From Luteibacter aegosomaticola (GTDB lineage Bacteria > Pseudomonadota > Gammaproteobacteria > Xanthomonadales > Rhodanobacteraceae), in the NCBI RefSeq assembly GCF_023078475.1, contig NZ_CP095741.1, forward strand, positions 806,001-870,000: a stretch of DNA of 64,000 nucleotides, written 5' to 3'. Positions 5,552-31,679 of the stretch are shown here, piece after piece (positions within the stretch are counted from its first letter, which is position 1; each line of letters begins with the position of its first letter). The notes beneath the pieces are model-generated. The model was given only the letters and a program-made list of their open reading frames with translations, was not told the DNA's origin and did no database searches. The position numbers and the translations under genes were made by a program.

Positions 5552-6885
5552 GACTTCGCTTCCTCGGGCGCGTAAAACGTCAGCGCGTGCCGGTTGCGAT
5601 ACGCCCCGATGGTTGGGATCAGGGAGAACAGCGCATCCAGGCACTGGCCGCCGAAATAGGCGACCGCCGCACCCATGATGCCAAAGCTGTGGCTAAGGCC
5701 AATAAGCAGGGCCACATAGGCCACCGCGGCAAGCGCCTGGGCCACGAGGGCGGCGCGCTGGCGGCTGGCGATGTAGAGCAGGGATTCGAGCGGAAAGCCG
5801 GCCATGGAGACGACGAGGGCGGCGCACATCACCTGTAGCAGATCGTAGGCTTCCAGATACTGCTTGCCGAACACGGAGCCGATCAGTGGCTTGCCGACGG
5901 CGATGACCAGGATGGCGACGAGCACGCCAAGGCCGCCAGCCAGAGCGGCCGCGCGCAAGCCCAGCTTCCAGGGGCGATCACTGGCGGGGTCGAGGCGGCG
6001 AATCTCCGGGTAGAAGCTTTTCTGCATCAGCGAGGCGGGGGTGCCGGCCGCGTCGAAGAAGGTCAGCGCCACCTTGAACACACCCGCTGCCGCCGGGCCG
6101 AGCACGATACCCACCAGCACGTTGCTGCCGGCATTGCGCGCCGACCAGATCGAATGGGCGAAATTGGTGGTCCAGACGAAATCCCACGCGCCCTTGATAC
6201 GCCGGGCGGCGCTCATGAGCTTGGGCCGCAGCGCATCCTGGATGTTCTGTCGACGCAGCTCCTGCACGGCGAACCACCACAGCGTGGCGTCGCCGGCCAG
6301 GCTGGAGAGATACCAGGTCGCGATGAAGCCCGGGAAGCCCAGGTCGCCGAAGTAGGCGACGACGCTGCCGACGGCGCGCAGGAACGGCGTGATCGCCTGC
6401 TGCACGGCGATCAGGTCGAAGCGATCGATGGAGCGGAGGATGCCGGTGGGCGTCGCCGCCGTCATCGTCGGAATGAGGGTGCAGTAAGCCAGCGCCCACC
6501 AGAAATCCCCGGGCGGAATACCCACGGCATGGCTGAGGAAGGGCAGCAGGACCATACCGCCGACCAGCGCGATGGCGCCGCTGGCGAGATCGAGGCCGAA
6601 CGAGAAGCCCACCACGTCGCGGAACCGGTTCAGGTCCTTGTGCGCCAGGGCTGGCGTGCCGAACTGCACGACAAACTGCCAGGTCTGGAACTTGACGAAG
6701 TCACTGACGCTCTTGCCGTAGGCCTGCACCACGACCAGCACGCCGAACAACGCCGGGTGCAGGGCACGGCCGGCGCACGCGAGCGCCAGCAGCCCCAGCA
6801 ACGCGCCGACGACGTTGCTGGAGCCCAGGTAGGTAGCGTTACGCACGATGGCGCGGAAGGCGCCATCGGAGAACCAGTGTTTCAT
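5548..6885 (-). CDS. MOP-superfamily flippase (Wzx/polysaccharide biosynthesis type)
   Basis: 445 aa, about 12 hydrophobic segments spread over the whole length, starting with a short amphipathic N-terminus (MKHWFSDGAFRAIVRNATYL) typical of oligosaccharide/lipid flippases of the MATE-Wzx superfamily. Overlaps its neighbours on both sides by 4 nt (ATGA), so it is co-translated with the serine-palmitoyltransferase-like gene upstream and the unknown gene downstream. Wzx-like proteins normally flip undecaprenyl-linked sugars; in this operon without glycosyltransferases, flipping of a sphingolipid or derived glycolipid is a reasonable guess, but the sequence alone does not say. Confidence 0.85.
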   Translation of the reverse strand: MKHWFSDGAFRAIVRNATYLGSSNVVGALLGLLALACAGRALHPALFGVLVVVQAYGKSVSDFVKFQTWQFVVQFGTPALAHKDLNRFRDVVGFSFGLDLASGAIALVGGMVLLPFLSHAVGIPPGDFWWALAYCTLIPTMTAATPTGILRSIDRFDLIAVQQAITPFLRAVGSVVAYFGDLGFPGFIATWYLSSLAGDATLWWFAVQELRRQNIQDALRPKLMSAARRIKGAWDFVWTTNFAHSIWSARNAGSNVLVGIVLGPAAAGVFKVALTFFDAAGTPASLMQKSFYPEIRRLDPASDRPWKLGLRAAALAGGLGVLVAILVIAVGKPLIGSVFGKQYLEAYDLLQVMCAALVVSMAGFPLESLLYIASRQRAALVAQALAAVAYVALLIGLSHSFGIMGAAVAYFGGQCLDALFSLIPTIGAYRNRHALTFYAPEEAKS

Positions 6886-8099
6886 CGCTCGAGCGCGGTA
6901 GGGGCCGTGGCCATGACACTCTCGCGCGCCGGCCAGCTGGCGAACGCGGCGCAGATGGCATCGATCTGTTCCGGCGTATGGGCAGCACTGACGCTGCAGC
7001 GGAGCAGCGATTCGTTGCCCGGCGTAGCCGGCGGCACCATGACGTTCACGTACACGCCCTGCTTGAGCAGGTGGTGCCAGAAGCGCAGGGCCTCCACCTT
7101 TTCGCCCGCGAGCACGGCGACCACGGCGTTGGCCGGGGCGCCCAGGCGGAAGCCCAGGGCGGCCAGGCCGGCGTGCAGGCGCGCGGCATTCTCGCGGATA
7201 CGCTGGCGCAGGTCGCTGGCGGCCTCGAGCTTGCGCAGGGCCATGCGGGTGGCCGCGATCGTTGCCGGGGGCAGCGAAGCGGTGAACACGTACGGGCGGC
7301 TGGCGTAACGGAGCACTTCCATTTCATCGGCGTCGCCGACGCAGAAGCCGCCGGTGTTGCCGAGACTCTTGCTGAAGGTGCCAACGACGTAATCGATATC
7401 GTCGAGGAGGCCCAGCTCTTCACACAGGCCCTGGCCCTTCGCGCCGAGGACGCCCATGGAGTGGGCTTCGTCGACGAGCAGGGTGGCGCCGAACTGCTTC
7501 TTCACCTCGACGAACTCGCGCAACGGCGCGCGATCGCCCAGCATGCTGTACACGCCTTCCACGACGATCAGGGCGTTGGCCGCCTCGTCGCCCAGGCGGC
7601 GCATGCGCTTGGCCAGGTCATCCGGGTCGTTGTGGCGGAAGCGGATCGTGTTCGCACCGCTCAGGTTGCAGCCGTCGTAGATGCTGGCGTGGCTGTCGGC
7701 ATCGATCATGACGGTATCGCCCGGGCCAGCCAGGGCCGAGATCATGCCCAGGTTGGCCTGGTAGCCGGTGGAGAACACGATGGCGTCGCGCTTGCCGTAG
7801 AAGCGCGCGAGATCGAGCTCCAGCTCGCGGTGTGCCGCGTAGCTGCCGTTGGCCATGCGCGAGCCCGTGGTGCCCGTGCCGGCGCTCTCAAGCGCCTGGC
7901 GGGCCGCCGCGATGCAATCCGGGTCGAAGGTGAGCCCGAGGTAATTGTTGGTGCCAGCGAGGATCGTCTTGCGACCCTGGATCAGGCCCTCGGTGGGCGA
8001 CAGGATCTCATCGATCTGGATACCGAACGGATCGACGCCCAGGGACGCCAGTTCGCCTCGGACCTCCCGCACGGCACGGAGCCGGGGGTTCTCTTTCAT
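6882..8099 (-). CDS. spt: Serine palmitoyltransferase-like alpha-oxoamine synthase (PLP enzyme)
   Basis: 405 aa, fold-type I PLP enzyme of the alpha-oxoamine synthase group (SPT, AONS, KBL). The PLP lysine is K244 in GTFSKSLGNTGGF, and the upstream DEAHSMGVLG motif supplies the aspartate and histidine that hold the cofactor. Members condense an amino acid with an acyl thioester. A biotin role (BioF) is unlikely because the partners here are a dedicated acyl carrier protein, an acyl-AMP ligase and an SDR reductase, the set known from bacterial sphingolipid synthesis, where SPT joins serine and an acyl-ACP to give 3-keto-sphinganine. Starts overlapping the ACP stop by 4 nt. An autoinducer synthase (CqsA/LqsA type) is the main alternative. 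Confidence 0.85.
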   Translation of the reverse strand: MKENPRLRAVREVRGELASLGVDPFGIQIDEILSPTEGLIQGRKTILAGTNNYLGLTFDPDCIAAARQALESAGTGTTGSRMANGSYAAHRELELDLARFYGKRDAIVFSTGYQANLGMISALAGPGDTVMIDADSHASIYDGCNLSGANTIRFRHNDPDDLAKRMRRLGDEAANALIVVEGVYSMLGDRAPLREFVEVKKQFGATLLVDEAHSMGVLGAKGQGLCEELGLLDDIDYVVGTFSKSLGNTGGFCVGDADEMEVLRYASRPYVFTASLPPATIAATRMALRKLEAASDLRQRIRENAARLHAGLAALGFRLGAPANAVVAVLAGEKVEALRFWHHLLKQGVYVNVMVPPATPGNESLLRCSVSAAHTPEQIDAICAAFASWPARESVMATAPTALER

Positions 8100-8347
8100 G
8101 CTTTTTTGCCTACGTGCGTCTGGATCAGCGTGGCCAGCTGGCCGACGGTTTTGATGTCCGCCAGGGTGTTGAGCGGCACCGAGATCTCGTAATGATCCTC
8201 GACATCGGTGATGAGGTCCATCACCTTCAGCGAATCGAGCGCCAGCTCGCCGGTAAGCCCGGTATCCGCGGTGATGTTGGCCACGCGCCCTTCGGCGTGG
8301 GGTTTCACCAGCCTGATCACTTCGGCAACGACTTCTTCGTGGGTCAT
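8096..8347 (-). CDS. Acyl carrier protein dedicated to the sphingolipid-type operon
   Basis: 83 aa acidic four-helix carrier protein. The phosphopantetheine attachment serine is S39 in ELALDSLKVMD. It ends in a lysine-rich tail (HVGKKA), unusual for a housekeeping ACP. Overlaps both neighbours by 4 nt. In characterised bacterial sphingolipid clusters a dedicated ACP (AcpR type) is loaded by an acyl-ACP synthetase and feeds serine palmitoyltransferase; the acyl-AMP ligase at 9324 and the synthase at 6882 are the matching partners here. Confidence 0.9.
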   Translation of the reverse strand: MTHEEVVAEVIRLVKPHAEGRVANITADTGLTGELALDSLKVMDLITDVEDHYEISVPLNTLADIKTVGQLATLIQTHVGKKA

Positions 8348-9327
8348 GGGGGTGTTCCGTTCAAAGCGGTAAGGGGTTTGCCGAGGGTCTGGGCCAGGCC
8401 TTCCCGGAACGGGACGGCGGGCTGCCAGCCGGTGGCTTGCATGAAGGGAGCGCTGTTCGATACCCAGTCGGCATGCGTGATTTCACGCACCTTGCCTGGG
8501 GTCAGCATCGGCGCGTAGCCAAACAGGCGCGCGCCCAGGCGGTTGGCGCGAGCCACGAAACGCAGGACCGGCACCGGGATGTGCAGGCGGCGGATGGGCG
8601 CGCCATCGCGCAGCACCTGGGCCGCCGTGCCCAGCACGGTATCCCAATCGTAGCCGCGGGCGTGGCCATCATCGAGCTCGTAGATGGCGCCGCTGGCGCC
8701 CTCCGTGCCCAGCCAGGCCACGACGGCCGAGGCCAGGTCGGCCACGTGGATCAGCGAGAAACGTCCGTCGCCCGCTCCCGGGATAGCCGCGATGCCGCGA
8801 GCCATGCCCTGGAACAGCGGAAGCATCTCGCGATCGCCGGGGCCATAGACGGCCGGCGGCCGGATGGCCGCCCACGTCAGGCGGCCCGCACGAGCGGCGA
8901 GCGCCTGCTCGCCGAGATGCTTGCTGCGCGCGTAATCCGAGAGCTGGGGCTCGCGTGCGGCGAGCGAGGAGATCAGCAGGAAGCGTTCGCACGAGGGCGC
9001 CAGCAGGGCAGCCTCCACCGTGTTGATCACGCCCCGTTCGTTGACCCGGTCGAAATCCGCCTGGCTGGCGCCGCGAACGCTGCCCGCGCAGTGGATGACA
9101 GCGTGCGCGCCATCCATGACGGCGGCCAGCGCGTCTTTGTCGTCGAGGTCGCCGGCGATCCACTTCAGGCCCGATGCGCTGTGCATCACGCGGCCGCGGC
9201 GCGGCCGGTACAGGGCCCGCACGCGGTAACCCGCGCGGACAAGATGTTCGCTAAGCGCGGCGCCAATGAAGCCGGTGGCGCCGGTCAATGCAACGACCGG
9301 CCTCCCGTCGTCTGGCGTTTCGCTCAT
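8344..9327 (-). CDS. Extended SDR/NAD-dependent epimerase family reductase (CerR-like)
   Basis: 327 aa starting at MSETPDDGRP (9327), where the ATG overlaps the acyl-AMP ligase stop. Rossmann motif TGATGFIG at residues 15-22 and the catalytic YxxxK pair Y132/K136 (DYARSK) show an extended short-chain dehydrogenase. In bacterial sphingolipid clusters a protein of this family, CerR, reduces the 3-keto group of the long-chain base or ceramide. Operon position between the ligase and the ACP supports that role. An epimerase or dehydratase of a sugar nucleotide is the alternative, less likely since no sugar genes are near. Four-nucleotide overlap with the ACP gene downstream. Confidence 0.83.
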   Translation of the reverse strand: MSETPDDGRPVVALTGATGFIGAALSEHLVRAGYRVRALYRPRRGRVMHSASGLKWIAGDLDDKDALAAVMDGAHAVIHCAGSVRGASQADFDRVNERGVINTVEAALLAPSCERFLLISSLAAREPQLSDYARSKHLGEQALAARAGRLTWAAIRPPAVYGPGDREMLPLFQGMARGIAAIPGAGDGRFSLIHVADLASAVVAWLGTEGASGAIYELDDGHARGYDWDTVLGTAAQVLRDGAPIRRLHIPVPVLRFVARANRLGARLFGYAPMLTPGKVREITHADWVSNSAPFMQATGWQPAVPFREGLAQTLGKPLTALNGTPP

Positions 9328-11087
9328 CGCGAACCCGCGACCCGAAGGACGTGCTCCTGCGCCTGGCGTTCCAGGTAACCCTTGCGGGTGGCCGAGCGGG
9401 AAAGCTTGCCCGAGGATGTGCGCGGCAGCGTGTGGCGCGGCACGAGTTCGATCAGGCAATCCACGCCCAGTTCTTCCAGCAGTTCGCGGCGGATGCGTTG
9501 CACCAGCGCCACGCGAATGGCGGTGTCGTCGGTGTTGCACTGGACCACGACCACGGCGATCTCGGCACCCGTCGGGCCCGGCACGCTGAACGCCGAAGCG
9601 TCCTGCGAACGCAGTTCCGGCTGGCGCTCGACGATGCGCTCGATCTCCTGTGGCCAGATGTTGCGGCCGTTGACGATGATCATGTCCTTGTGACGGCCCG
9701 TGATCACGACTTCGCCATCGATGAGGTAGCCGATATCGCCCGTGTCGAGCCAGCCATCACCGGCGAGGACGTCATCGGTGAGTTCCGGCTGCTCGTAGTA
9801 GCCCGACATGATGCTCGGGCCACGAACCATGATCTTGCCTACGTGGCGATCGGCCAGCAGGTGGCCGGCGTCGTCGCGGATCTCGAGTTCGTGTTCCGGC
9901 AGCACCGGCCCACAGCGGACGAACGGCGTGCCCTGGCCCTTGGCCACCGGCGTCGCGCGCAGGTGGTCGGCCAGGTCGGTCGGGTCGATCCAGTCAACCA
10001 GCATGCCCTTGCCGAGCGGCGAGAAGCTCACCGCCAGCGCAGCTTCGGCCATGCCGTACGACGGCACGAAGGCGTTCGAGTTGAAACCCGACTGGCCGAG
10101 CAGCTCGGCGAACTTCTCCATCACTTCGGGATGGATGGGCTCGGCGCCAACACCGGCGATACGCCAGTTAGACAGGTCGTACGAAGCGATGTCGCCTGGG
10201 CGCACGCGGCGTGCGCACATGTCGTAACCGAACGGCGGGCTGTAAGCGATCGTTGCCTTCGACTGGCTCATGAGTTCGAGCCAGCGGCGCGGACGCATCG
10301 CGAATTCGCGCGTGTCCATGTAATCGATGGAGCGCTGTCCTGCCATCACGGTCAGCAGGCAGCCGACCAGGCCCATGTCGTGATAGAACGGCAGCCACGA
10401 TACGAAGCGGTCTTGCTCGTTCAACACGAGGCCGTGGTTGATCGAACCGCGCAGGTTGGCGAGCAACGCGCCCTCGGTGATCACCGCTGCCTTCGGCGTA
10501 CCGGTGCTTCCCGAGGTGAACTGCAGGTAGGCCACTTCGTCGGCGCGCAGCGGCTGCATCGGCGAGGTATCGGCCGGCAACTCGTCGAAGGCCGACGGCT
10601 CGCCCCACATCACCACGCCCAGGCCACGCACGGCTTCTTCCAGGAAACCCTGGAAGGATTCCGATGCCACGGCCACGGCGGCGTCGCACGCCTGCAGCAT
10701 GCCACGGAGCTTCTTGACGAAGGCGTCATGCCCGCCGAGGTTCACTGCGGAAGGGACGGCAACCGGCACGAGACCGATGTACTGGCAGGCGAAGAAGAAG
10801 CGCAGGAACTCCGGGCTCGTCTCCGCGATGATGGCCACGCGAGCGCCACGCGGCAGCTCGAGCGAAGCCAAACGCTGCGCAAGGTCGATCGCCTGCGTTC
10901 GCAAGGTCTTATAGGGCAGCGCCGTTGCCAGCTTGCCGCCCGCATAGAAATTCGCACCGGTCGTACCCGTCGCCGCGTAGTCGAGGACTTCGGCAAGCGT
11001 GTCGAAGTCACCCCGACGCAACGGCATCGAGTTGATCGTGGGTGTCGGTGACCCAGTGCGAGTAAAGATGCTTCCGTCTGCGCTCAT
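9324..11087 (-). CDS. Fatty acyl-AMP ligase / acyl-ACP synthetase
   Basis: 587 aa ANL-superfamily adenylating enzyme. The AMP-binding motif is LQFTSGSTGTPKAAVI, with later YGMAEAALAVSFSPLG and WLDTGDIGYLIDGEVVITGRHKDMII, the arrangement of FAAL-type ligases that pass the acyl group to a carrier protein instead of CoA. It is the first gene of the minus-strand operon and would load the ACP encoded two genes downstream. Start ATG at 11087 is not preceded by a strong Shine-Dalgarno sequence; a second in-frame ATG (MPLRRGDFD) lies at 11027. The leader in front holds a perfect 7-bp inverted repeat. Confidence 0.88.
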   Translation of the reverse strand: MSADGSIFTRTGSPTPTINSMPLRRGDFDTLAEVLDYAATGTTGANFYAGGKLATALPYKTLRTQAIDLAQRLASLELPRGARVAIIAETSPEFLRFFFACQYIGLVPVAVPSAVNLGGHDAFVKKLRGMLQACDAAVAVASESFQGFLEEAVRGLGVVMWGEPSAFDELPADTSPMQPLRADEVAYLQFTSGSTGTPKAAVITEGALLANLRGSINHGLVLNEQDRFVSWLPFYHDMGLVGCLLTVMAGQRSIDYMDTREFAMRPRRWLELMSQSKATIAYSPPFGYDMCARRVRPGDIASYDLSNWRIAGVGAEPIHPEVMEKFAELLGQSGFNSNAFVPSYGMAEAALAVSFSPLGKGMLVDWIDPTDLADHLRATPVAKGQGTPFVRCGPVLPEHELEIRDDAGHLLADRHVGKIMVRGPSIMSGYYEQPELTDDVLAGDGWLDTGDIGYLIDGEVVITGRHKDMIIVNGRNIWPQEIERIVERQPELRSQDASAFSVPGPTGAEIAVVVVQCNTDDTAIRVALVQRIRRELLEELGVDCLIELVPRHTLPRTSSGKLSRSATRKGYLERQAQEHVLRVAGSR

Positions 11088-11126
11088 GTTTTTACCGCTT
11101 TTCGACGCCAGACCGCGTCTTTGGGG

Positions 11127-11144
11127 GCAACACGGGGGTGTTGC
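11127..11144. promoter_or_regulatory. Inverted repeat in the leader of the sphingolipid-type operon
   Basis: GCAACAC (11127-11133) and GTGTTGC (11138-11144) form a perfect 7-bp inverted repeat with a GGGG centre, 40 nt upstream of the acyl-AMP ligase start. It could be an operator or an RNA hairpin in the 5' leader. No family of regulator can be named. The 179-bp gap between 11088 and 11266 also has AT-rich sequence (11156-11215) that probably contains the promoter. Confidence 0.4.
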
Positions 11145-11266
11145 AAGGCCATTACTGAACCTAATGGTACCCTAATTGGCGGCTATGTTAAGAATTTACT
11201 CAGATTTTCGTAAGCCCTATGGGGCTTGTCTTGTAAATTTTATGTGAAGAAATGGCGAATCCGCCC

Positions 11267-12025
11267 CTACTTCTGGCCCCGTTCCTTGTTCCATTTCGCC
11301 ATGTTTTTGATCGGCTGGCGCACGTACGGACTGATGCTGATTAGCCAGAAAATCAATCGGTTAAAGGCTGTTCCGAGCTTGTCCGAGGGGCGGTCGATAT
11401 CGATGAAAAGGACGGCCCGGAGCTCGTCCGTATCATTGTGAACTTCGTGTTCAAAACTATCGTCGAAAAGTACGACCTTGCCCTCGTGCCAGTGGAGGAT
11501 CTGATCATCCACGCGGATCCAGACGTTCTCCCAGTCCTGTGGGACGCGCAGGCCGAGGTGGGCGCGGATCACGGCCTTGGTCGGACCCTTGTGCGCCGCG
11601 ATGCGGTAACGCGGCTGCAGGATCGAGAACATCGCACTGCGCATGCCGGGCAGGGCGTCCAGCGCCGCAGCCGTGCGCGGGCAGACCGCGCAGTTCTCAT
11701 CGACGCGGTTGCCGTAAACGTAGAAGCCGAAGGTCTTCCAGTTATCGCCCTTGGAGATGCGCTTCTGGTCCGGGGAAATCTGGTGGAACGCGGGGATATC
11801 CTCCGGGTGCTCCAGAAGATGCTCCAGTTCCTGGCGGATCTCCGGCCAGGCGGCCTCAAGGCGCGGTACCCAGTCAAACGTATCGTTCGGCAGCACCGGC
11901 GTGGTGGCGACCAGCGAGTGCTTCGCCTGGAAACGGCCGCTCCAGCGCAGGAAGCGCTTGCCGGCACGGATGAGCATCCGGCGCCACAGTGGGGCCTGGG
12001 GAGCGTTCGAAAGGGTCGTGTTCAC
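11267..12025 (-). CDS. Aspartyl/asparaginyl beta-hydroxylase-type dioxygenase (LpxO-like)
   Basis: 252 aa with a GTG start at 12025 preceded by GAGG at good spacing. Fe(II)/2-oxoglutarate dioxygenase of the AspH/LpxO group: the HKGPTKAVIRAHLGL segment (145-159) and FDDSFEHEVHN (187-197) carry the iron histidines and substrate/cosubstrate residues. A hydrophobic C-terminal stretch (about 222-236) and a basic N-terminus suggest membrane association, as in LpxO, which hydroxylates lipid A acyl chains. Lying 180 bp downstream of nothing but directly beside a sphingolipid-type operon, it could hydroxylate a fatty acyl chain of lipid A or of the sphingolipid; the substrate is not readable. Last gene after two kinases on the same strand (23-nt gap). 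Confidence 0.85.
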   Translation of the reverse strand: MNTTLSNAPQAPLWRRMLIRAGKRFLRWSGRFQAKHSLVATTPVLPNDTFDWVPRLEAAWPEIRQELEHLLEHPEDIPAFHQISPDQKRISKGDNWKTFGFYVYGNRVDENCAVCPRTAAALDALPGMRSAMFSILQPRYRIAAHKGPTKAVIRAHLGLRVPQDWENVWIRVDDQILHWHEGKVVLFDDSFEHEVHNDTDELRAVLFIDIDRPSDKLGTAFNRLIFWLISISPYVRQPIKNMAKWNKERGQK

Positions 12026-17965: not shown

Positions 17966-18154
17966 TTAGCAGCAGAGGCCCGGCCGGGAAGCCGTACACG
18001 AGCTGCAGTTCGAAGCCAGCGCCATCTCGGCGTTGGTCATCGCCACCATCGTCTGTGCCTGACCCTCGGTGTAGAGGGAGCCAGCAGGATTGTCATACCC
18101 ACCTACGCTATCCGCACCGCTCAGCCACCCGGCCAGAATCTTGTCGGTCTGCAT
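17966..18154 (-). CDS. lanA: Lanthipeptide precursor peptide (LanA)
   Basis: 62 aa, starting at ATG 18154 with a strong AAGGAG six nt upstream; a longer in-frame reading to 18304 has no such site. The N-terminal leader carries a NPAGSLYTEGQAQ segment and an acidic end (TNAEMALA). The C-terminal core is about SNCSSCTASRPGLCC: four cysteines (C50, C53, C61, C62) and five Ser/Thr (S48, S51, S52, T54, S56), enough for up to four rings. There is no Gly-Gly or Gly-Ala cleavage motif at the expected place, so the cut site is unclear. Directly upstream of lanM and co-transcribed through a hairpin. Confidence 0.88.
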   Translation of the reverse strand: MQTDKILAGWLSGADSVGGYDNPAGSLYTEGQAQTMVAMTNAEMALASNCSSCTASRPGLCC

Positions 18155-18369
18155 GGAAAACTCCTTGGTGTGTAACGGGTATGCGCCCAGTAGTTTTACT
18201 GTCGGCCCGCAGCGGGCGCGTCCGCGGCGACGCCCGCCGATTCTGCGCTTGATCGGTTCGTATGCCACATGTCGTGCCGTTTTTGCGTCGCGAACCAACG
18301 CCACACGCGCGTACGCACTCTGGCACGATGCGAAGACTCGGCAGTGATGAAACGTACGGAGGCGTTGTA

Positions 18370-20004
18370 ATGATCGTCTGGCGTTTTATCTTGCGACATC
18401 GCGCGCTCGTCGCCAGTGCAGTCGGCCTTTCGTGCGTGAGTGCGGTGTGCACGATGATGCTGCTTGCTCATATCAACCGCTTCGCCGCGGAAGGCGTTGC
18501 TGCGGGATCGATGCGCTGGCTGTCCGGCGTTGCGTGGCTAGCGGCCGTGCTTCTCGCAAGTACTGCCTCGCAGTTCATCCTGGCCCGCTTAGGCGGTGAT
18601 CTCGTGGCGCAGCTTCGCATGGATCTTTCAGCGCGTGTCATTCGGATGGAGTACGAGGCGCTGGCGCGCGATCGCCACGCCGTGGTCGATTCGCTCATCG
18701 AAGACGTCGCGGCGATAGCGCCGCTGGTACTGGTTGCGCCCATGCTGGCCTATAACGCGCTCCTTGTCGTTCTTTATGCGGGATACCTCGCGCAGGTGTC
18801 GGCACCTTTGCTGGGGATACTGGTCACCTTTCTTGCCTGTACGGCCGCCGCCTCTGTCGTCCTCGAACGTTTCCTTCGTCGGCGCTTCGATGCGCTACGC
18901 GATGCCAACGAAAAGGTCTTCGAGTTCTTCCGTTACCTGAGTGATGGCAAGAAGGAGATGGCTCTGCATACTGCACGAGCGCGTCATGTCAGTGATGCGC
19001 TGCTTGGACCCGCAATCTACCGCGCCAGGAAGCTGATGGTTCAGGTGCATACAGGTCTTGGGATCAACGAGGCGTGGTCGTCGGCGGTGGTCTACTCCGC
19101 CGTCTTCGTCGTGGTCTATGTCGGCTACGTCGCCTTGCGATTGCCGCCCGCCACCGTCACGCGCTTTGTCATCGGAGCCTTGTTCCTCGGCGGCCCCGTG
19201 GCGTTCATCACCAGCGCCGCCCGCCAGGTGGGTGTCGGCACGGCCAGCCTGCGGCATTTGCAAAAGACGGGTCTGAATTTGCACGGCGAGCCCGTCGATC
19301 ACGGCGATGATGGCCTGCGTGTCGATATTCCGTCGTGGCGGTCAATGAGCTTGCGCGGCGTCAGCTACCGCTACCCGGATGTGAGTGACGAGAGGTCCGC
19401 ATTGGGTCCGGTCGATCTGGACATCCAGCGCGGCGAGCTATTGTTTATCGTGGGTGGCAACGGCAGCGGAAAATCAACCTTGTTGCTTGTGCTTGCATCG
19501 CTGTTGACGCCAACCAGCGGCGAGGTGCTCGTGGACGGACACCCGGTTGCAACGTCGGTTGCCGCGCATCGCCAACGTTTCACCGGTGTGTTTGGTGACT
19601 TCTTCCTCTTCCCCCACGTGCTTGACGATGCGGGGCATGTGGTAGACGACGCACGTGTGATGGCGTGGCTTGAAGCTCTGGGTCTTGGCGCGCACGTGAG
19701 CGTCACGTCGGGTGAGTTGTCGCGCCTTGCGCTGTCTACCGGGCAGCGCAAACGGCTCGCTCTGCTGCAATGTTATGCCGAGGATCGTGACATCTTCTTC
19801 TTTGACGAATGGGCCGCGGATCAGGACACGCATTTTCGCGATTACTTCTATCGCACGCTGCTCCCTGAGCTGAAAGCACGTGGCAAGACGGTGATCGCCA
19901 TAAGCCATGATGACCGCTACTTTCCTCTCGCCGATCGCGTCGTAAAGCTGGAGTCGGGCCGGGTGGTAAGCGACATTCGCGCGCGCACCTCCGTGACGGC
20001 GTAA
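18370..20004 (+). CDS. ABC exporter, cyclic-peptide/siderophore type (probable lanthipeptide exporter)
   Basis: 544 aa from ATG 18370, preceded by GGAGG at 7 nt; an in-frame ATG at 18262 is less likely. One membrane domain (about six segments, residues 10-310) fused to one ATPase domain: Walker A VGGNGSGKST with K368, signature LSTGQRKRLALL, Walker B DIFFFDEWAADQD and H-loop ISHDD. The layout fits the PvdE/SyrD/YojI group of peptide exporters. It lacks the N-terminal C39 peptidase of the usual class II LanT, in agreement with a precursor without a double-glycine site. Divergent from lanA with 215 bp between, so probably the exporter for the modified peptide. Confidence 0.88.
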   Translation: MIVWRFILRHRALVASAVGLSCVSAVCTMMLLAHINRFAAEGVAAGSMRWLSGVAWLAAVLLASTASQFILARLGGDLVAQLRMDLSARVIRMEYEALARDRHAVVDSLIEDVAAIAPLVLVAPMLAYNALLVVLYAGYLAQVSAPLLGILVTFLACTAAASVVLERFLRRRFDALRDANEKVFEFFRYLSDGKKEMALHTARARHVSDALLGPAIYRARKLMVQVHTGLGINEAWSSAVVYSAVFVVVYVGYVALRLPPATVTRFVIGALFLGGPVAFITSAARQVGVGTASLRHLQKTGLNLHGEPVDHGDDGLRVDIPSWRSMSLRGVSYRYPDVSDERSALGPVDLDIQRGELLFIVGGNGSGKSTLLLVLASLLTPTSGEVLVDGHPVATSVAAHRQRFTGVFGDFFLFPHVLDDAGHVVDDARVMAWLEALGLGAHVSVTSGELSRLALSTGQRKRLALLQCYAEDRDIFFFDEWAADQDTHFRDYFYRTLLPELKARGKTVIAISHDDRYFPLADRVVKLESGRVVSDIRARTSVTA

Positions 20005-21469: not shown

Positions 21470-23779
<2,310 letters not shown>

Positions 23780-23956
23780 TCATAGGCGCCGTTTGAACAT
23801 TGCAGAAATTGATTGATCTTATGATGACAAGAGGCTGGCTCTATCGATGGAGCGATATCTGCCAAAGGATCGCCAACCCGGCATCTTGGGAACATGAAGA
23901 ATGGCCTATGTAAATGGCCTATAGGGCTGTCGCCGAATTTGTCCTACGATCCCGGG

Positions 23957-24787
23957 ATGGAAACGTCCACTCAAACGAGCCAGAAGGTCGGTAGCCTTGC
24001 CGTGGTTGGCATGGGCATGACCCTGGGCTCCCATCTGACCCCCATTTCGCGCAGTTATATCGAGCAGGCGGACGTCGTCTTCGCGGCACTCTCCGACAAC
24101 CTGGTCGAGGAATGGCTGATGCGGATGAACCCCGACGTGCGCAGCCTGCAGGGCTACTACGCTGAAGGTAAGTCACGCATGGACACCTATTGGGAGTGGC
24201 TTGATCTCATCATGGCCGAGGTGCGTGCGGGCAGGCAGGTGTGTACGGTGTTCTACGGCCACCCCGGCATTTTTGCCTGGACTCCTCATAAAGCCATCGC
24301 CACGGCGCGTGCCGAGGGGTTCGCGGCGCATATGGAGCCCGGGGTGTCCTCGGAGGACTGTCTCTATGCCGATCTTGGCATCGACCCGGGCCGCTATGGC
24401 TGCCAGCATTTCGAGGCGAGTCAGTTCATCCTTTACGACCGCCAGCTCGATAACGCGGGCTACGTCGTGTTGTGGCAAGTCGCTCTCGCGGGCGACACCA
24501 CGCTGGCGCGGTTAAGTTCAACCGGGGCGGCGTATCGGCAAGTGCTCGTCGACCGCCTGGCCAAGGACTATCCGCTAGACCATCAGGTGATCATTTACCG
24601 AGGGGCGACCTTGCCTATCCAGGATCCGCGGATCGAGTACCTTGCGCTGGCCGACCTGCCGCAAGCGGACCTGAGCGTCGCCGACACCGTTGTCTTGCCG
24701 CCAGCGCGGGAAATGCGCCGGCTTCCGGAGGTATGGGCTCGTGTAGAGGCCTTGGATAAGGAAGGGGAGACCGTCACGCAATCGTGA
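23957..24787 (+). CDS. Borosin-type peptide backbone alpha-N-methyltransferase (OphMA-like)
   Basis: 276 aa SAM-dependent enzyme of the tetrapyrrole-methylase fold. It strongly resembles the methyltransferase domain of the fungal omphalotin enzyme OphMA, including the METSTQT start, YYAEGKSRMDTY (catalytic R74, Y78 and Y68 by alignment to OphMA R72, Y76, Y66), VFYGHPGIFAWTPHKAI and PGVSSEDCLYADLGIDP. Unlike OphMA it has no C-terminal peptide substrate; a 105-aa candidate substrate is encoded 59 nt downstream, the split borosin layout. Iterative methylation of backbone amides is the family reaction. Start 23957 is chosen by homology; an in-frame ATG at 23894 is possible and neither has a strong ribosome site. 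Confidence 0.88.
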   Translation: METSTQTSQKVGSLAVVGMGMTLGSHLTPISRSYIEQADVVFAALSDNLVEEWLMRMNPDVRSLQGYYAEGKSRMDTYWEWLDLIMAEVRAGRQVCTVFYGHPGIFAWTPHKAIATARAEGFAAHMEPGVSSEDCLYADLGIDPGRYGCQHFEASQFILYDRQLDNAGYVVLWQVALAGDTTLARLSSTGAAYRQVLVDRLAKDYPLDHQVIIYRGATLPIQDPRIEYLALADLPQADLSVADTVVLPPAREMRRLPEVWARVEALDKEGETVTQS

Positions 24788-24846
24788 CATAATCGGCAAA
24801 GCGCAAGGGGGGCAGGGGGCCTTCCGCGTTCCAGGGGTACAAACAG

Positions 24847-25164
24847 ATGTCCGATTCGATCGATTTCCTCGAAGCCATTGGCCGCGACGCATCGTTGCGT
24901 CGGCTGCGTCCGGATGAACTCGCTCGCCGGCTTAAGGAGGCGGGTGCCTCCGACGTGCTTGCACGAGCTGCCGAGGCACGCGATAGCAATCTTCTCTGCG
25001 AGGAGTTTGGCGTCCGCGTCATGTACCACCCGAACGGCACAGACTCGCCGTTCCGCGAAGCACCGAAACCGCTCAAGGTCCCCTCGCCTGGTGAAGATCA
25101 GGACGATGAGGGGGAGGACGATGCCCCGCAGCAAAGCCTGCCGGCTCTAGAACGAGTACATTGA
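24847..25164 (+). CDS. Split borosin precursor peptide (candidate)
   Basis: 105 aa. The N-terminal half (DFLEAIGRDASLRRLRPDEL, then ARRLKEAG) is a helical region like the borosin-binding domain of precursors such as Shewanella SonA (pattern FxxxhGxDAxL). Residues 55-64, GVRVMYHPNG, match in position and pattern the methylated SonA stretch near LVISHGNGD, so V56, V58, M59 and Y60 are the likeliest methylated sites. Unlike SonA the protein continues for 40 more residues: a Pro-rich piece and a strongly acidic tail (GEDQDDEGEDD). Follows the methyltransferase by 59 nt; the next gene starts 9 nt after its stop, so it may share a transcript with the diguanylate cyclases. Confidence 0.75.
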   Translation: MSDSIDFLEAIGRDASLRRLRPDELARRLKEAGASDVLARAAEARDSNLLCEEFGVRVMYHPNGTDSPFREAPKPLKVPSPGEDQDDEGEDDAPQQSLPALERVH

Positions 25165-25173
25165 GGTACGAGC

Positions 25174-26946
25174 ATGCTGATGGCCCTTCGCAAGTACGCT
25201 ATAGCGTGGTTCGCCGGGGCCATTCTGGCGATGTGGGTTGTGCCTGTCTGTGCCGCGGTGGCGATCACGGATGTCACTACCTTCCTTGATCAAGCTGATG
25301 CCATCCGTTTGACGGATAACGCGCGTTTTGCTGCGATGCTCGCGCAGGTACATGCGGAACAGCCACCGATGACGCCACTCCAGCGGTGGCGCCTGCGCTA
25401 CCTGGATGCGGCCCAGGCGCAGTTTACCGGGCACTACCCGGAGGCAGAGAAGGGCCTTCGCGACATCATTGATCATTCCGGGCACCCCGGGATGATTGCG
25501 TTGGCCATGGGCAAGCTCATGAAGCTTCTGAGCACGACCCACCGCTACGAGGAAGTGTTCACGATCGCGCGGCGCGCCGTTCCGTTGCTGCCTTCGGTGA
25601 AGGACCCCGTCGCTCGCCGGGCCCTGCTGGATATGCTTTCGCAGTCCATGACGTTCGCAGGCCACCCCGAGATCGCCATCCAGTATGCGGCGATGATGCG
25701 CGCCGATCTTGCGCCGGGCGACTCTCCGTGTCTGTCCATGACCGATGAAATCGCCGCCCTTTATATGCAGAAGGCGTTGCCGTCCGATAGCCCCCGGCTT
25801 GCAACGGCGATTGACGCATGTAATGCCCATGGCGTCGCGGTAATGAGCAACATGCTGGCGCTGACAAAGGCGACACGCCTGGTCGAAGAAGGCAAGCCGG
25901 CTGCCGGCCTGGCTCTTCTCGACAGCGTCGCGGCATCCATCGAGAAAGTCGGCTATTTTTCGGCCAAGGCATCGTTGTACAGCGTGCGTGCCGATGCCTA
26001 CCTCGCCATGAATCGAGACGCCGATGCGCGGAAGGCGGCGCTCGCGACGGTAGCGCTGTTCCATCCTGGCGATATCGATAACTTCCTCATGGACGCTTAC
26101 CACGTCCTCTACGAAGTGGAGAAGCGCGCTAAGCGGGATACCGTCGCGCTTGCGTACTACCAGCAGTACACGGACCAGGAACGCGATAACCTCAATGACA
26201 TGACGGCGCGCACCCTGGCCTACGAGACCGTACAGCAGCGCGCACTCCTGCAAGGCATCGAATCAGAGAAGCTTGCCCACCAGAACAGCTTGCTGCAGCT
26301 GGAACAGGCGCTGACAGCCAAAGCTATGGAAACAGGGCGGCTCTATATCGTCCTCCTCGTCCTGCTCCTGGCCTCCGTTTTACTTTGGCTCGTCCGTACC
26401 AAGCGTTCGCAGCTGCGCTTCAAGCGCCTTTCGTCGCAAGACGGGTTGACCGGCGTGTTTAATCATCAGTACTTCATGACCGAGCTCGAGCGAGAGCTGC
26501 ATGATCTTGAACGGCACGCTACGCCCGCGTGTCTCGTGTTGCTCGATCTCGATCATTTCAAGCTCGTCAACGATACCTACGGCCATGCCATCGGCGATGC
26601 GGTGCTGAAACGCGCTACGGCCACCTGCCGTCAGCAGCTGCGACCGGTAGATATCTTCGGCCGCCTCGGAGGTGAGGAGTTCGGCATCCTGTTGCCCGGC
26701 TGCCAGGGGGAGCAGGGTCTCGTCATCGCGAACTGCATCCGCGCCGCGATGGAAGCGGCGCCGGTCACGGTCGATGGCCACGTGGTGCAATACTCCGCAA
26801 GTATCGGCGTAGCGTGCACGCGGATCTCGGGATACGCATTGCAACACATCCGTCGTGAAGCGGACGCCGCGCTCTATCGCGCAAAAAGCATGGGGCGCAA
26901 CCGCGTGATGACCGATTTCCAGGATATCGGGCTCGTTAGCGCGTGA
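25174..26946 (+). CDS. Diguanylate cyclase with periplasmic TPR-like sensor region (copy 1)
   Basis: 590 aa, GAGG before ATG 25174. Signal sequence or anchor (MLMALRKYAIAWFAGAILAM), then about 350 residues of helical, TPR-like repeats predicted outside the inner membrane, one transmembrane helix (about 389-408, LYIVLLVLLLASVLLWLV), and a cytoplasmic GGDEF domain. The active site GGEEF is at 499-503 and the inhibitory RxxD site (RPVD) is in place five residues before it, so the enzyme should make c-di-GMP under product control. Overlaps its paralogue by 4 nt (GTGA). Confidence 0.93.
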   Translation: MLMALRKYAIAWFAGAILAMWVVPVCAAVAITDVTTFLDQADAIRLTDNARFAAMLAQVHAEQPPMTPLQRWRLRYLDAAQAQFTGHYPEAEKGLRDIIDHSGHPGMIALAMGKLMKLLSTTHRYEEVFTIARRAVPLLPSVKDPVARRALLDMLSQSMTFAGHPEIAIQYAAMMRADLAPGDSPCLSMTDEIAALYMQKALPSDSPRLATAIDACNAHGVAVMSNMLALTKATRLVEEGKPAAGLALLDSVAASIEKVGYFSAKASLYSVRADAYLAMNRDADARKAALATVALFHPGDIDNFLMDAYHVLYEVEKRAKRDTVALAYYQQYTDQERDNLNDMTARTLAYETVQQRALLQGIESEKLAHQNSLLQLEQALTAKAMETGRLYIVLLVLLLASVLLWLVRTKRSQLRFKRLSSQDGLTGVFNHQYFMTELERELHDLERHATPACLVLLDLDHFKLVNDTYGHAIGDAVLKRATATCRQQLRPVDIFGRLGGEEFGILLPGCQGEQGLVIANCIRAAMEAAPVTVDGHVVQYSASIGVACTRISGYALQHIRREADAALYRAKSMGRNRVMTDFQDIGLVSA

Positions 26947-28721
26947 GGCTGTTCTTGCTGTCCGATCGCGAGCGAACCGTGCTCTGCAGGGTGCTGGCTG
27001 TGCTGCTGGCGCTGGTCGCCGCGGGCACCTCGTCGACCGAGGGATCGGTGGATGCGTTCATCGCCACCGCGAAGAACATCCAGCTTGCGGATCATCCGCG
27101 CTTCGCCGCCCTGTTGGCAAAGATTCACGCGGATAACCCCGTCCTGACCGAAACCCAGCGTTGGCAGCTGCGCTACCTCGATGCCTGGGAAAACAGCTAT
27201 AACGGTCGTTATTCGGAAGCGTTGGTCATCTACCAGGATATCCTGGATCACTCGGGTGACCCGACCCTGGCCGCCAGGGCGATGGGCAAGATGCTTTCGG
27301 GTTATGCGTTCAACAAGCGCTACGAGGATGTCTTTTCCCTGGCAGAGAGAGCGGTCGCCGTGCTGGACCACACCCAGGATCCTGTCGCCCGGTTCGCGCT
27401 GCTCACCGATCTGTCGCAGTCGCTGAATTTCTCGGGCCAGCCCGAGATCGCCATCCGCTATGCGCGGATGATGGCCGATGTGGATCCGGAGGGCGACAAC
27501 ATGTGCGTGCCGATCGCAACCGAGATCGCTGCGCAGTACAGCACGCACACGTTTAGTTGGGACGATCCTCTTTTCAAGCGCGGCATCGACGCGTGCGAAA
27601 GCAAGAAGGATCCTGTTTTCACCAACATGATCTTGCTTACCAAGAGTGCCCTTGCGATCGAACAGCACAAGCCGGCCGAAGGGCTGGCCATTCTCGACCG
27701 TATCGCTCCGTCCATCGTCAAGACGAACTTCCACGCGGCGCTCACATCGCTCACGGAGACGCGCGCGCAGGCGCTTTATGCGCTGGGCCGTGACGAAGAA
27801 GCACGATTGGCTGCGCTCAACGTGTTGAGCATGTACGGTAATGCCGACATCGACGGGTGGCTGCGCGATGCCTACGAGATTCTCTACAACGTGGCCAAGA
27901 AGCGCGGCGATGCCTCCGCGGCGCTTGATTATTTCGAGAAGTTCTCCGAGCAGGATCACGGCCACCTGGACGACGAGCGCGCCCGTGCGCTCGCCTATCA
28001 GACCGTGCAGCAGCGCAAGCTGGTAGACAAGGTCGAATCGGAGAACCTCTCCCGGAAGAACGATGTGCTACGCGCCGAGCAGAAGCTGGCGACCAAGTCG
28101 CTTGAGATCGGCCGCCTCTATATTGCCTTGCTCGTCATCGTGGTGCTTTCCGTCGTGCTCTGGTTGTTCCGTGTCCGTCGGTCGAGGCGCCGTTTCGAAT
28201 GGCTGGCGCACCACGATGGCCTGACCGGAATCGCCAACCACCAGCACTTCATGGTGGAGCTCGAGGCGGCGTTGGCGGATCTGGCGCGAAGGAGGGCGCC
28301 TGGCTGCGTGATCCTCCTCGACCTTGATCACTTCAAGCTGGTAAACGATCGCTACGGGCACGCGGTAGGTGATGCGGTGTTGCAGCACGTGGTTGAGGTT
28401 TGCCGCGCATGCCTTCGTCGCGGAGATCTTCTCGGGCGCCTCGGTGGCGAAGAGTTCGGCGTTCTGCTGCCCGACTGTACGCCCGATGAGGGTATGAGGA
28501 TCGCAGAGGACATGCGCGAGGCGCTGGCTCAGAGCAGTGCGCACGTCGACGGTCAGGTTGTTTCCTGCCTGACCAGTGCGGGTGTTTCATCGACGCAGTA
28601 CTCCGGCTACAGCTTGAAGCAGCTGCGTAGCGACGCGGACTCTGCGCTCTATGTTGCCAAGCGGGAGGGCCGCAACCGCGTGGCGGCCGGCATGCGCGAA
28701 CGTAGTACGTTGCAGGCCTGA
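26943..28721 (+). CDS. Diguanylate cyclase with periplasmic TPR-like sensor region (copy 2)
   Basis: 592 aa with GTG start at 26943 inside the stop of copy 1. Same layout and clearly homologous throughout (for example RWQLRYLDAWE against RWRLRYLDAAQ, and YQTVQQRKLVDKVESENL against YETVQQRALLQGIESEKL). GGEEF at 501-505 with an RxxD site (RRGD) before it, so both copies look active. The sensor halves have drifted more than the GGDEF halves, as expected if the two sense different signals. Its TGA abuts the stop of the convergent EAL gene in the palindrome TGATCA. Confidence 0.93.
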   Translation: MRLFLLSDRERTVLCRVLAVLLALVAAGTSSTEGSVDAFIATAKNIQLADHPRFAALLAKIHADNPVLTETQRWQLRYLDAWENSYNGRYSEALVIYQDILDHSGDPTLAARAMGKMLSGYAFNKRYEDVFSLAERAVAVLDHTQDPVARFALLTDLSQSLNFSGQPEIAIRYARMMADVDPEGDNMCVPIATEIAAQYSTHTFSWDDPLFKRGIDACESKKDPVFTNMILLTKSALAIEQHKPAEGLAILDRIAPSIVKTNFHAALTSLTETRAQALYALGRDEEARLAALNVLSMYGNADIDGWLRDAYEILYNVAKKRGDASAALDYFEKFSEQDHGHLDDERARALAYQTVQQRKLVDKVESENLSRKNDVLRAEQKLATKSLEIGRLYIALLVIVVLSVVLWLFRVRRSRRRFEWLAHHDGLTGIANHQHFMVELEAALADLARRRAPGCVILLDLDHFKLVNDRYGHAVGDAVLQHVVEVCRACLRRGDLLGRLGGEEFGVLLPDCTPDEGMRIAEDMREALAQSSAHVDGQVVSCLTSAGVSSTQYSGYSLKQLRSDADSALYVAKREGRNRVAAGMRERSTLQA

Positions 28722-31679
28722 TCAGTTCGTCAATGCGGCGTTTCCAGTGGGCCGCGCACGCAGGAAATCCACCAGCGCATCAAATGCCATCGGTACGGCG
28801 CGATGGAATCCCTGCACGCTGTCGCACCCCGCAGTGACCAGCCAGTTGAGTTGAGCCTGCGTTTCCACGCCCTCGGCTACGACCGTCATCCCCAGGGTAT
28901 GGGCCAGCGTGATGATGGCCCGGCAGATCGATGCCGAACGTTCGTGCGTTGCCACGTCGCTGACAAACACCCGATCGATCTTCAGCGAATCGATCGGCAG
29001 GTCGCGTAGGTAGGCCATGCTGGAGAAGCCCGTACCGAAGTCGTCGAGGGACACATGCGTGCCCTGGGCGCTAAGCCGGCGCATGGCCGCCATGGCCGAG
29101 CGGCGGTTGGCCATGAGGCTGCTCTCGGTCAGCTCGATCGCCAGCGCGCCTCGCGGTAGCTCGTACCGAGCGATGACGGCACCGACGTCGGTCGCCACGT
29201 CCGTCCTTTGGAACTGCACGGCGGATACGTTCACGGCGATCGCGAGTTCACCGTAACCGGCACGGGCGAGGGCGACATGGCATTGCGCCGCCTCATCGAA
29301 CACCCAGCGGCCGATATCGACGATCAGCCCGGTTTCTTCGCTCAGCGGAATGAAGTCCTCGGGCGGCACGAAAATGCCATCCGCACCGGGCCAGCGCAGC
29401 AAGGCTTCGAGCTTCTGCACGCGGCCCGTCGTCGCATCGAGAATGGGTTGGAAGTGCAGTACGAATTCATTCTGCTCGATACCCTGGCGGATCCGCGAAG
29501 CCATGCGCAGACGCTCGATCGACCGCTCGGCCATCGAAGCCTCGAAAGGGCGGGGCAGGCCCGAGCTCTCGCCATGGAAGTGTGCCGCCATGGCTGCGCT
29601 GGCGATGATCTGCTCCGCGCTCGTGCCATCGGTGGGGTGCGTGGCCACGCCGATCTCTGGATCAAGCGCATGCCACGTACCGTCGAGCAGGACGGGCTCG
29701 GTGACTGCCGCGGTGAGCGCCTCGATCGCGCGTTGGCGTTTGTCCGGATGCATCACGGCCAGCAGGAAGCGTTCGCTGGGGCGGTGTGCTGCCATGCCGA
29801 AATCGGTGCCTAGCGTGGCGAAGCGGCGGCCGACCTGCTGCAGGACAGTGCGGCCGGCTTCGAGGCCGTAGGTATCGGCGATCAGGTCGAGCCCGCGCAG
29901 GTGTACGTAGATCACCTCATACCAGCGCCGCGTGCCAAACCGGCGGTCGAGGAAATCGGTCAGGGCTTCGGTATTGGCCAGGCCCGTCAGCAGGTCGTGA
30001 GTCGCACGCCACGCGAGGTCGCGCTCGGCCCGGCTGCGTTCCGTCACGTCCTCGGCCAGCACCAGCCGTGCATGGTGGCCCATGAATTCCAGCGGGGTCG
30101 TGTGGATGCGCACATCGAGCAGGCTACCGTCCTTGCGCCGGTGGACCCAGGTGCGGCTCATCATCGTGGCCGTGTCCTGGGTGGCGAGCGCGTGCTGCAG
30201 CGGCGCCACTTCCGATTCGGGGCGGATATCGATGACCGCCATGCGCAGGAATTCCGCTCGCGAGTAGCCGTAGTTGCGCACGGCGGCGGCGTTGACTTCG
30301 AGGAACTCAAGACTGTCGATATCGAACACCCACGAGGGTAGCGGGGTTCGTTCGAACATGAGGCGGAAGCGCTGTTCGGCCTCTGCGAGCTGGCGCTGGG
30401 TTTCGATGCGGTCGGTGGCGTCGACGACGGTGCCCGTCATCGCCTTTTCGCCATCGGTGCTGGTGATGGCACCCGTGCCCGAGATCCAGCGTTGCGTACC
30501 GTCCGGGCGTAGCCAGCGGAAGTCGAGGTTCAGGGTGGCGCCGCTCTTCCAGGCGCCGACGAAAGCCGTGCGGGCGCGTTCCACGTCATCGGGATGGATA
30601 TGGCTGTAGAACGTCGTGTCGTCGACGCCCTCACCGCGAGCCGCCAGGCCCAGCATGGCTTCCACCTGGGTATCCCATGTGAGCCGGTTACGCCGTGCGT
30701 CGGCACGCCAGGTGCCCGTGTTGCCGAGCACCTGCGCTTGCCGCCAGCGTTCCGTGGCATCGGTAAGCTCAGCCACATGCCGGCGCTCCGCGACGTTCGC
30801 GTCGCTAACGCGCCGGATGAGAAAAGCAAATCCCAGCCAGTACAACACCCACACGGCGATGCTTACGCCGAGGAAGCTGTACCACGGGCCCATGTAATCG
30901 CGCACGGCGATCCCCACGCCCACCCCGATCGGATATTCGCCCCAGGGCGACGACGCCACCAGCCGTTCCGTGTGATCGATCTTGCTGGTGCCGATGTCGG
31001 CGCCAGGCCTGGAGGGGGTCCAGAGCATGCTCGATGGCTGGCCGATGACGCGGTCCGTGTCGGCGGACCGGGCCACGATGGTGTTGAAGCGGTCGATGAT
31101 GGCGATGACCCCGTGGCGCCCCGCATCCACGTGATCGACGACATCCTGGAACTGGGCCTGGCGTAGCCGGGCGAAGACCCAGCCCCCCGACGCGACCGGG
31201 ACCGCGATCGGCATGTTCCAGCGGCCGTCGGCGTCGCGTACCAGCGGCCCCATGGCCAGAGCGCCGGACGAGGCCGGCTGGGTCGTGGCCCATTCAGCAA
31301 GGTGGGGGTCGGGGAGGCCGGTGGTGATCGCGTGGCCGCTGGCATCCACCAGCATGAGGTCGCTTAGCTCGGCTTTGCGCGCGCTGACTCCGGCGATGTT
31401 TTGGGCGATGAGCTGGACGGCCTGCGCGGGGGCGGTGCGGTCGATATCCTGGGCGTCGCGAGCAATTCCCTGCATCGCCAGCTGCAAGCCGTGGAGCTGC
31501 GCCATGAGAAGCCGTTGGGCTCCACGGGCCAGGGCCAGGCTCTGGCTGCGCGCAGCCGCCGTGCGCCGGGTGTGGTCATGGATCAGCACCGTCGCCAGTA
31601 CGAGGCCGAGCGCGACGCCCACGACGATGCCCGCCGTGCGAATCAGGCGGATGGATTGGCGCGATGCTAGATCTGCCAT
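28722..31679 (-). CDS. c-di-GMP phosphodiesterase: Cache-like sensor, two PAS, degenerate GGDEF, EAL
   Basis: 985 aa. Two membrane helices (about 14-34 and 255-282) enclose a PDC/Cache-like periplasmic sensor; two PAS domains follow (about 310-420 and 430-545). The GGDEF domain is inactive: the signature reads RPSERF. The EAL domain is complete (EALLRW, NVSAVQF, ELTESSL, LDDFGTGFSSM, LKIDRVF, AEGVETQAQ, QGFHRA), so the protein should break down c-di-GMP. It faces the two cyclases end to end, giving makers and a breaker of c-di-GMP in one place. The 5' leader has a GCCCGCC-GGCGGGC hairpin (31701-31719). Confidence 0.93.
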   Translation of the reverse strand: MADLASRQSIRLIRTAGIVVGVALGLVLATVLIHDHTRRTAAARSQSLALARGAQRLLMAQLHGLQLAMQGIARDAQDIDRTAPAQAVQLIAQNIAGVSARKAELSDLMLVDASGHAITTGLPDPHLAEWATTQPASSGALAMGPLVRDADGRWNMPIAVPVASGGWVFARLRQAQFQDVVDHVDAGRHGVIAIIDRFNTIVARSADTDRVIGQPSSMLWTPSRPGADIGTSKIDHTERLVASSPWGEYPIGVGVGIAVRDYMGPWYSFLGVSIAVWVLYWLGFAFLIRRVSDANVAERRHVAELTDATERWRQAQVLGNTGTWRADARRNRLTWDTQVEAMLGLAARGEGVDDTTFYSHIHPDDVERARTAFVGAWKSGATLNLDFRWLRPDGTQRWISGTGAITSTDGEKAMTGTVVDATDRIETQRQLAEAEQRFRLMFERTPLPSWVFDIDSLEFLEVNAAAVRNYGYSRAEFLRMAVIDIRPESEVAPLQHALATQDTATMMSRTWVHRRKDGSLLDVRIHTTPLEFMGHHARLVLAEDVTERSRAERDLAWRATHDLLTGLANTEALTDFLDRRFGTRRWYEVIYVHLRGLDLIADTYGLEAGRTVLQQVGRRFATLGTDFGMAAHRPSERFLLAVMHPDKRQRAIEALTAAVTEPVLLDGTWHALDPEIGVATHPTDGTSAEQIIASAAMAAHFHGESSGLPRPFEASMAERSIERLRMASRIRQGIEQNEFVLHFQPILDATTGRVQKLEALLRWPGADGIFVPPEDFIPLSEETGLIVDIGRWVFDEAAQCHVALARAGYGELAIAVNVSAVQFQRTDVATDVGAVIARYELPRGALAIELTESSLMANRRSAMAAMRRLSAQGTHVSLDDFGTGFSSMAYLRDLPIDSLKIDRVFVSDVATHERSASICRAIITLAHTLGMTVVAEGVETQAQLNWLVTAGCDSVQGFHRAVPMAFDALVDFLRARPTGNAALTN

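Follow-up and report, generated by a model that had tools for sequence, protein, structure and literature searches.

We analysed a 64,000-nucleotide (nt) stretch of the Luteibacter aegosomaticola genome (contig NZ_CP095741.1, positions 806,001 to 870,000 of the forward strand), called the window below. It carries the genes of a SonM-like borosin methyltransferase and of a separate precursor peptide, directly followed by two genes for predicted membrane proteins in which a tetratricopeptide repeat (TPR) domain is joined to a GGDEF diguanylate cyclase domain. We propose that the split borosin pair is part of a three-component module of methyltransferase, precursor and TPR-GGDEF sensor, in which peptide and sensor belong to one circuit, and put the probability of this reading at about 0.75. 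The split borosin pair is a known kind of system; its reading as a signalling module is the new part. A first-pass annotation of this DNA had proposed the pair as a unit of 23957..25164, an extent that proved too short, as two TPR-GGDEF genes of the same unit were omitted.

The methyltransferase and its precursor

The enzyme, a protein of 276 amino acids (aa), is encoded on the + strand from an ATG at 23957 to a stop at 24787; a longer frame would be possible from 23894. It matched the Pfam family TP_methylase (9.6e-20), and in a phmmer search against the PDB the SonM chains came out on top (E 4.2e-76 to 2.9e-75), followed by dbOphM (7e-53), OphMA (about 1e-51) and other fungal borosin enzymes. 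The block YYAEGKSRMDTY, which the first-pass annotation had recognized as the catalytic block of OphMA, is indeed found in this protein, and the E values of 4.2e-76 for SonM and about 1e-51 for OphMA rule out a chance resemblance. Four SonM residues that were mutated in earlier work, Y58, R67, Y71 and Y93 (according to the available text of PMC8429565), correspond to Y68, R74, Y78 and Y100 in the phmmer alignment, and all four were invariant in an alignment of 20 sequences. The alignment with SonM stops at residue 254-255 of 276, thus no core or clasp is fused to the C-terminus, as had been annotated, and a fungal fused borosin (types I-III) was rejected because the window enzyme lacks a C-terminal core. 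A cobalamin or sirohaem methylase, whose profiles had been named as the critical comparison, was rejected as well: six matching NCBIfam models (E up to 0.097) scored far under their cut-offs, for example 17.4 bits against a cut-off of 391 for a tetrapyrrole-methylase-type model, and the best matches were the borosin enzymes of the SonM and OphMA group. At the level of sequence, homology and key residues together confirm the 276-aa protein as a SonM-like borosin alpha-N-methyltransferase.

The precursor gene (24847..25164, 105 aa) lies 59 nt downstream on the same strand; the position, spacing and orientation annotated for both open reading frames (ORFs) were borne out by an ORF check. As a single query the 105-aa protein had no match in Pfam or NCBIfam, and weak PDB matches to two designed repeat proteins were taken as chance and rejected as relatives. 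A protein search returned 15 proteins including the window's own, all of the same precursor type, with a protein of Luteibacter pinisoli among the nearest relatives, in agreement with the Xanthomonadales-like genome suggested before. No consistent match emerged when 34 precursors were scanned against Pfam and NCBIfam. When a profile of 34 precursor relatives was compared with the PDB, the seven top matches were SonA chains (E 0.00095-0.0031), the next match following at 0.025. The structure model of the precursor is a five-helix bundle, and SonA was its one Foldseek match, though a weak one (E 7.1). The claim of a borosin-binding-domain-like N-terminus therefore stood with the profile of the relatives, whereas it found no backing from the single sequence. 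The domain comprises residues 1-54 with five predicted helices (24847..25008). Altogether, the SonM-like enzyme and the SonA-like profile, model and Foldseek match of the precursor make a split borosin pair, as first annotated, the best supported reading, with the 105-aa protein as precursor with a borosin binding domain.

For the region past the binding domain, 89 distinct precursor sequences of clade A and 60 of clade B were compared. Clade A favours Pro62 (59/89), Gln63 (60/89), Gln66 (50/89) and Pro68 (47/88), with acidic residues following at 71-72, while clade B has Cys60 (39/60), Cys61 (33/60) and Pro65 (44/60), then acidic residues. The window precursor reads P62 N63 G64 T65 D66 S67 P68 and is polar here. 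Its likely core region, PNGTDSPF (residues 62-69, 25030..25053), was placed by the conserved pattern P-[QN]-x-x-[QD]-x-P, which falls in register with the core of SonA. That core spans residues 62-71 and carries methyl groups on Leu63 and Ile65 (available text of PMC8429565). The register matches SonA, but the residues differ. Residues 71-105 (25057..25161) form an acidic tail that is predicted to be disordered. In both locus sets described below taken together, such a tail was present in 111 of the 113 cyclase-adjacent precursors versus 17 of the 40 others, counts which exclude precursors less than 300 bases from a locus end, or in one set shorter than 60 aa, and misfile some rows as non-adjacent (L081, with an over-extended cyclase frame, and L147, at a contig end).

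The precursor would very probably dock on the methyltransferase via its five-helix binding domain, and the enzyme would very probably N-methylate backbone amides of the peptide around precursor residues 59-69.

The TPR-GGDEF genes and conservation of the gene order

The first cyclase gene (25174..26946, + strand, 590 aa) starts 9 nt after the precursor stop. The second (26943..28721, + strand, 592 aa, GTG start) overlaps the end of the first by 4 nt and has no precursor of its own. Both proteins match the Pfam GGDEF domain with intact GGEEF motif and RxxD I-site, and both have a hydrophobic N-terminus and a single transmembrane-like stretch near residues 384-414, ahead of which a periplasmic helical TPR array is predicted in cyclase 1 (residues 34-318). 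TPR domain and catalytic GGDEF domain are thus united in one protein at the window locus. The Foldseek and VIA lists obtained with the cyclase model were filled by GGDEF domains, so that the TPR relatives missing from these lists allow no inference. C186 and C216, both in the portion of cyclase 1 predicted to be periplasmic, were invariant among 45 aligned sequences and might form a disulphide. Among 30 GGDEF-type matches in the window genome, five also align across the TPR part, and three of these five lie at borosin loci; no precursor-like ORF was seen near L178 and L179, two TPR-GGDEF loci of this genome without borosin genes.

The gene order was followed in two sets of loci. The first set comprised the window genome (two loci) and 40 loci of the family Rhodanobacteraceae, picked from various genera among the better-scoring matches listed, and leaning toward close relatives. 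Its 43 methyltransferase genes were followed on the same strand by a TPR-GGDEF gene in 41 cases, by a precursor gene in 41 and by both in 40; the exceptions were L044 and the second methyltransferase gene of L054 for the TPR-GGDEF gene, and L044 and L045 for the precursor. The second set, 80 loci with organism titles representing the best 80 of at least 569 relatives, covered Luteibacter, Dyella, Rhodanobacter, Frateuria, Fulvimonas, Rudaea, Oleiagrimonas, Tahibacter and uncultured members. Precursor and TPR-GGDEF gene followed downstream on the same strand in 72/80. Five of the eight misses are located at contig ends (L117, L134, L146, L147 and L148 stop within 1,218 bases); at L150 the TPR-GGDEF frame is cut by the end and a precursor was not found, and at L120 and L152 a precursor occurs but the TPR-GGDEF gene is absent. 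The gap between precursor and TPR-GGDEF gene was 0-52 nt in 70 of 78 measured cases, negative values being an artefact of over-extended frames. Clustering of the neighbouring genes in 57 full-length loci, with a 120-aa filter below which most precursors fall, showed only methyltransferase and TPR-GGDEF protein to recur widely (55 each), the next cluster being present in 9 loci. No maturation protease or exporter recurred in this clustering.

Additional units of precursor and TPR-GGDEF gene without a second methyltransferase were present at several loci, e.g. L107, L110, L118, L123 and L130. Two loci carry tandem precursors between methyltransferase and cyclase, eleven at L040 (5822-9412) and six at L037 (7087-9082; both in coordinates of the methyltransferase strand), and in both arrays the acidic tail is found solely on the last precursor, next to the cyclase.

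The rarity implied by the first-pass annotation, in which split bacterial systems formed a smaller group, has to be corrected for this family: the methyltransferase was found in 162/233 genomes and the precursor in 158/233. Both genes occur in 157 genomes, the enzyme alone in five belonging to one genus, and the precursor alone in one (G081, 86% complete). The window genome itself harbours a second complete methyltransferase-precursor-TPR-GGDEF module at about 1.87 Mb (L003:9597-12662), whose enzyme is 60% identical to that of the window and whose precursor has six consecutive histidines in its tail. Beyond these two loci no orphan precursors were detected in this genome, a third match with E 0.68 being taken as chance.

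Precursor clades A and B were mapped onto quick trees, calculated without bootstrap, of the TPR-GGDEF proteins and of the methyltransferases (77 labelled rows each). One change sufficed on each tree, as compared with about 24-36 changes for shuffled labels; when outside and unlabelled rows are counted, clade B needs four changes on the cyclase tree and two on the enzyme tree. Since linkage alone could produce this agreement, it indicates co-inheritance and not contact.

Outside the family, a search of the class gave matches in 15/369 genomes at E 0.001 and a search of the phylum in 15/398 genomes at 1e-20, own family included in both. We read 21 non-family loci, namely 8 of 13 from the class search, leaving out L162-L166 (E 1.7e-6 to 9.4e-4), and 13 new ones from the phylum search. 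In 13 of the 21, a gene for a TPR-GGDEF protein or for a TPR hybrid histidine kinase adjoins on the same strand (L167, L168, L202-L206 and L208-L213), the partners at L202, L205, L209 and L210 being recognized by whole-protein similarity only. The partner is a hybrid histidine kinase at L168, L211 and L213, and L167 has one kinase and one TPR-GGDEF protein. L204, which may come from a Shewanella, encodes a strongly SonA-like precursor and, next to it, a TPR-GGDEF protein of 592 aa. At L207 a GGDEF protein as long as the TPR-GGDEF proteins is encoded on the opposite strand, and in the other seven loci (L169-L174 and L214) no such partner was found. Among these, L171-L173 belong to AT-rich genomes and show, near their SonM-like genes, genes for look-alike proteins of about 440-470 aa (L171:7997-10722, L172:5764-7173, L173 reverse 10549-11874). 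At L174 (reverse 4917-5720) a 267-aa protein, with an N-terminal stretch that by eye resembles a borosin binding domain, is encoded just upstream of a distant methyltransferase. At L214 (reverse 5638-9162), in a genome outside the class, the methyltransferase match lies within an open frame of 1174 aa.

The closest association of sensor and enzyme was seen in the enzyme-only genomes of the family, two of which were looked at for fusions. In G036 (L223:3306-6174) and G034 (L224, reverse), TPR repeats, a transmembrane-like stretch, GGDEF domain and methyltransferase follow one another in a single protein of 867 or 857 aa, with a SonA-like precursor gene directly ahead. In the other three genomes, the methyltransferase match lies inside open frames of 829-872 aa. 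Of all observations, this fusion speaks most strongly for a common task of sensor and enzyme. It also puts the methyltransferase next to the cyclase, at the cytoplasmic face of the membrane.

Around the module in the window, a peroxidase gene, putatively katG, lies upstream on the opposite strand. A scan of the + strand from 23600 to 29000 revealed no sigma-70-like promoter, the number of sites not exceeding that in shuffled sequence. Further away, at 17966-20004, a DUF6229 gene overlaps an ABC transporter gene head-to-head and possibly represents another small-peptide system; no tie of this pair to the borosin module was found, and it sits past MASE1 and peroxidase genes.

A proposed circuit of peptide and sensor

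From the conserved gene order and the fusions we conclude that the peptide and the TPR sensor act together. The sensor would be an inner-membrane protein with a predicted periplasmic TPR superhelix, one transmembrane helix and an active-looking diguanylate cyclase. In the likeliest direction, the modified peptide, or the acidic-tailed precursor, would switch the TPR sensor to another state and thereby alter its output of cyclic di-GMP (c-di-GMP). The peptide may be the ligand of the sensor, a role that would include contact with the TPR array and presumably export. Going further, each precursor could serve as cognate ligand for the TPR sensor whose gene follows, with the superhelix reading the methylated peptide and the output swapped during evolution, such that Rhodanobacteraceae have GGDEF where some distant genomes have a hybrid histidine kinase; this extension we offer tentatively, at somewhat less than even odds.

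The sensor-enzyme fusion fits either direction, from peptide to sensor or from sensor to methylation. The TPR domain might sense something else, c-di-GMP and peptide methylation then being twin outputs of an upstream sensor and the peptide acting elsewhere. The architecture of G036 and G034, where the sensor protein ends C-terminally, in the cytoplasm, with the methyltransferase, would suit a sensor controlling the enzyme, and the 57-locus clustering lacks a conserved export gene. However, units of precursor and TPR-GGDEF gene duplicate without the enzyme, and the acidic tail tracks the cyclase-adjacent precursor (111/113 vs 17/40). Both patterns tie the precursor to the sensor more than the enzyme to the sensor, and we regard an upstream sensor as possible but rather unlikely. 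Alternatively, the locus may make an ordinary split borosin natural product such as an antibiotic or a metal-binding peptide, with the co-expressed cyclase serving no more than regulation or lifestyle. Bioactivity is known from borosins such as omphalotin, and the Cys-Cys cores of clade B and the six-His run of the second precursor could bind metal. Yet the recurring partners are TPR-sensor cyclases or kinases only and not GGDEF proteins in general, and genes for maturation or export do not recur in the 57 loci, which makes this origin of the gene order unlikely.

Two further explanations concern the enzyme itself. The methyltransferase fold could have changed its job and bind the precursor without methylating its backbone, as a regulator or for another modification; proline is not open to backbone methylation, and the likely core region in the window is polar and has prolines at both 62 and 68. 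The invariance of the four key SonM residues in 20 relatives speaks against such a change, which we consider improbable. That a cobalamin or sirohaem methylase lies beside an unrelated small ORF has in its favour the shared Pfam superfamily TP_methylase, but with equivalog models far under cut-off, a SonM match of 4e-76 and a small ORF that is conserved and SonA-like, its probability is close to nil.

If the peptide is the ligand of the sensor, backbone N-methylation, beyond being a trait of drug-like products, would serve in signalling. Should the cognate-ligand reading hold, these loci would encode signals that are ribosomally made, N-methylated on the backbone and read by a receptor family of their own, and bacterial borosins, perhaps including SonA, would gain a biological role. 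The recurrence of the sensor (72/80), its co-duplication with the precursor and its fusion to the enzyme make the function of split borosins testable via c-di-GMP.

Relation to known systems

Split borosins of types IV-X are known (available text of PMC11395268 and PMC11285071). In the borosin texts consulted, we came across no biological role for the split systems, and within the accessible borosin literature GGDEF was mentioned only in PMC11395268, whose Figure 1 legend lists a GGDEF-sequence-containing domain among borosin architectures. Some link between GGDEF and borosins is therefore already published, as far as this legend goes; the architecture possibly corresponds to the TPR-GGDEF-methyltransferase fusion of L223 and L224, whereas the window enzyme is unfused. 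In the accessible literature, nothing tying omphalotin, or backbone N-methylated precursor peptides, to diguanylate cyclases was found.

A TPR-GGDEF cyclase that is gated by its TPR domain and has a partner from the same operon is described for Vibrio vulnificus RcbA/RcbB: the TPR domain of RcbB represses GGDEF and the partner relieves this repression (PMC12282931). Unlike in the window, the partner of RcbB is another TPR protein, and the available text of PMC12282931 mentions neither a methyltransferase nor a precursor peptide.

The window enzyme shares the methyltransferase domain with fungal OphMA and dbOphMA but lacks their fused clasp and core. The closest counterpart is the type IV system SonM/SonA of Shewanella oneidensis, as far as described in the available text of PMC8429565. 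Both systems have a separate enzyme and an adjacent precursor, conserve the residues corresponding to Y58, R67, Y71 and Y93, and have a binding domain of five helices, about 53 residues long, after which come a linker and, in matching register, the core of SonA and the likely core region of the window precursor. Unlike SonA, whose core ends at residue 71, the 105-aa window precursor extends past this region by some 35 residues of acidic tail, and the region itself is Pro-flanked and polar. The window also has the adjacent TPR-GGDEF genes, which are perhaps common to SonA-like systems, since L204 has one as well.
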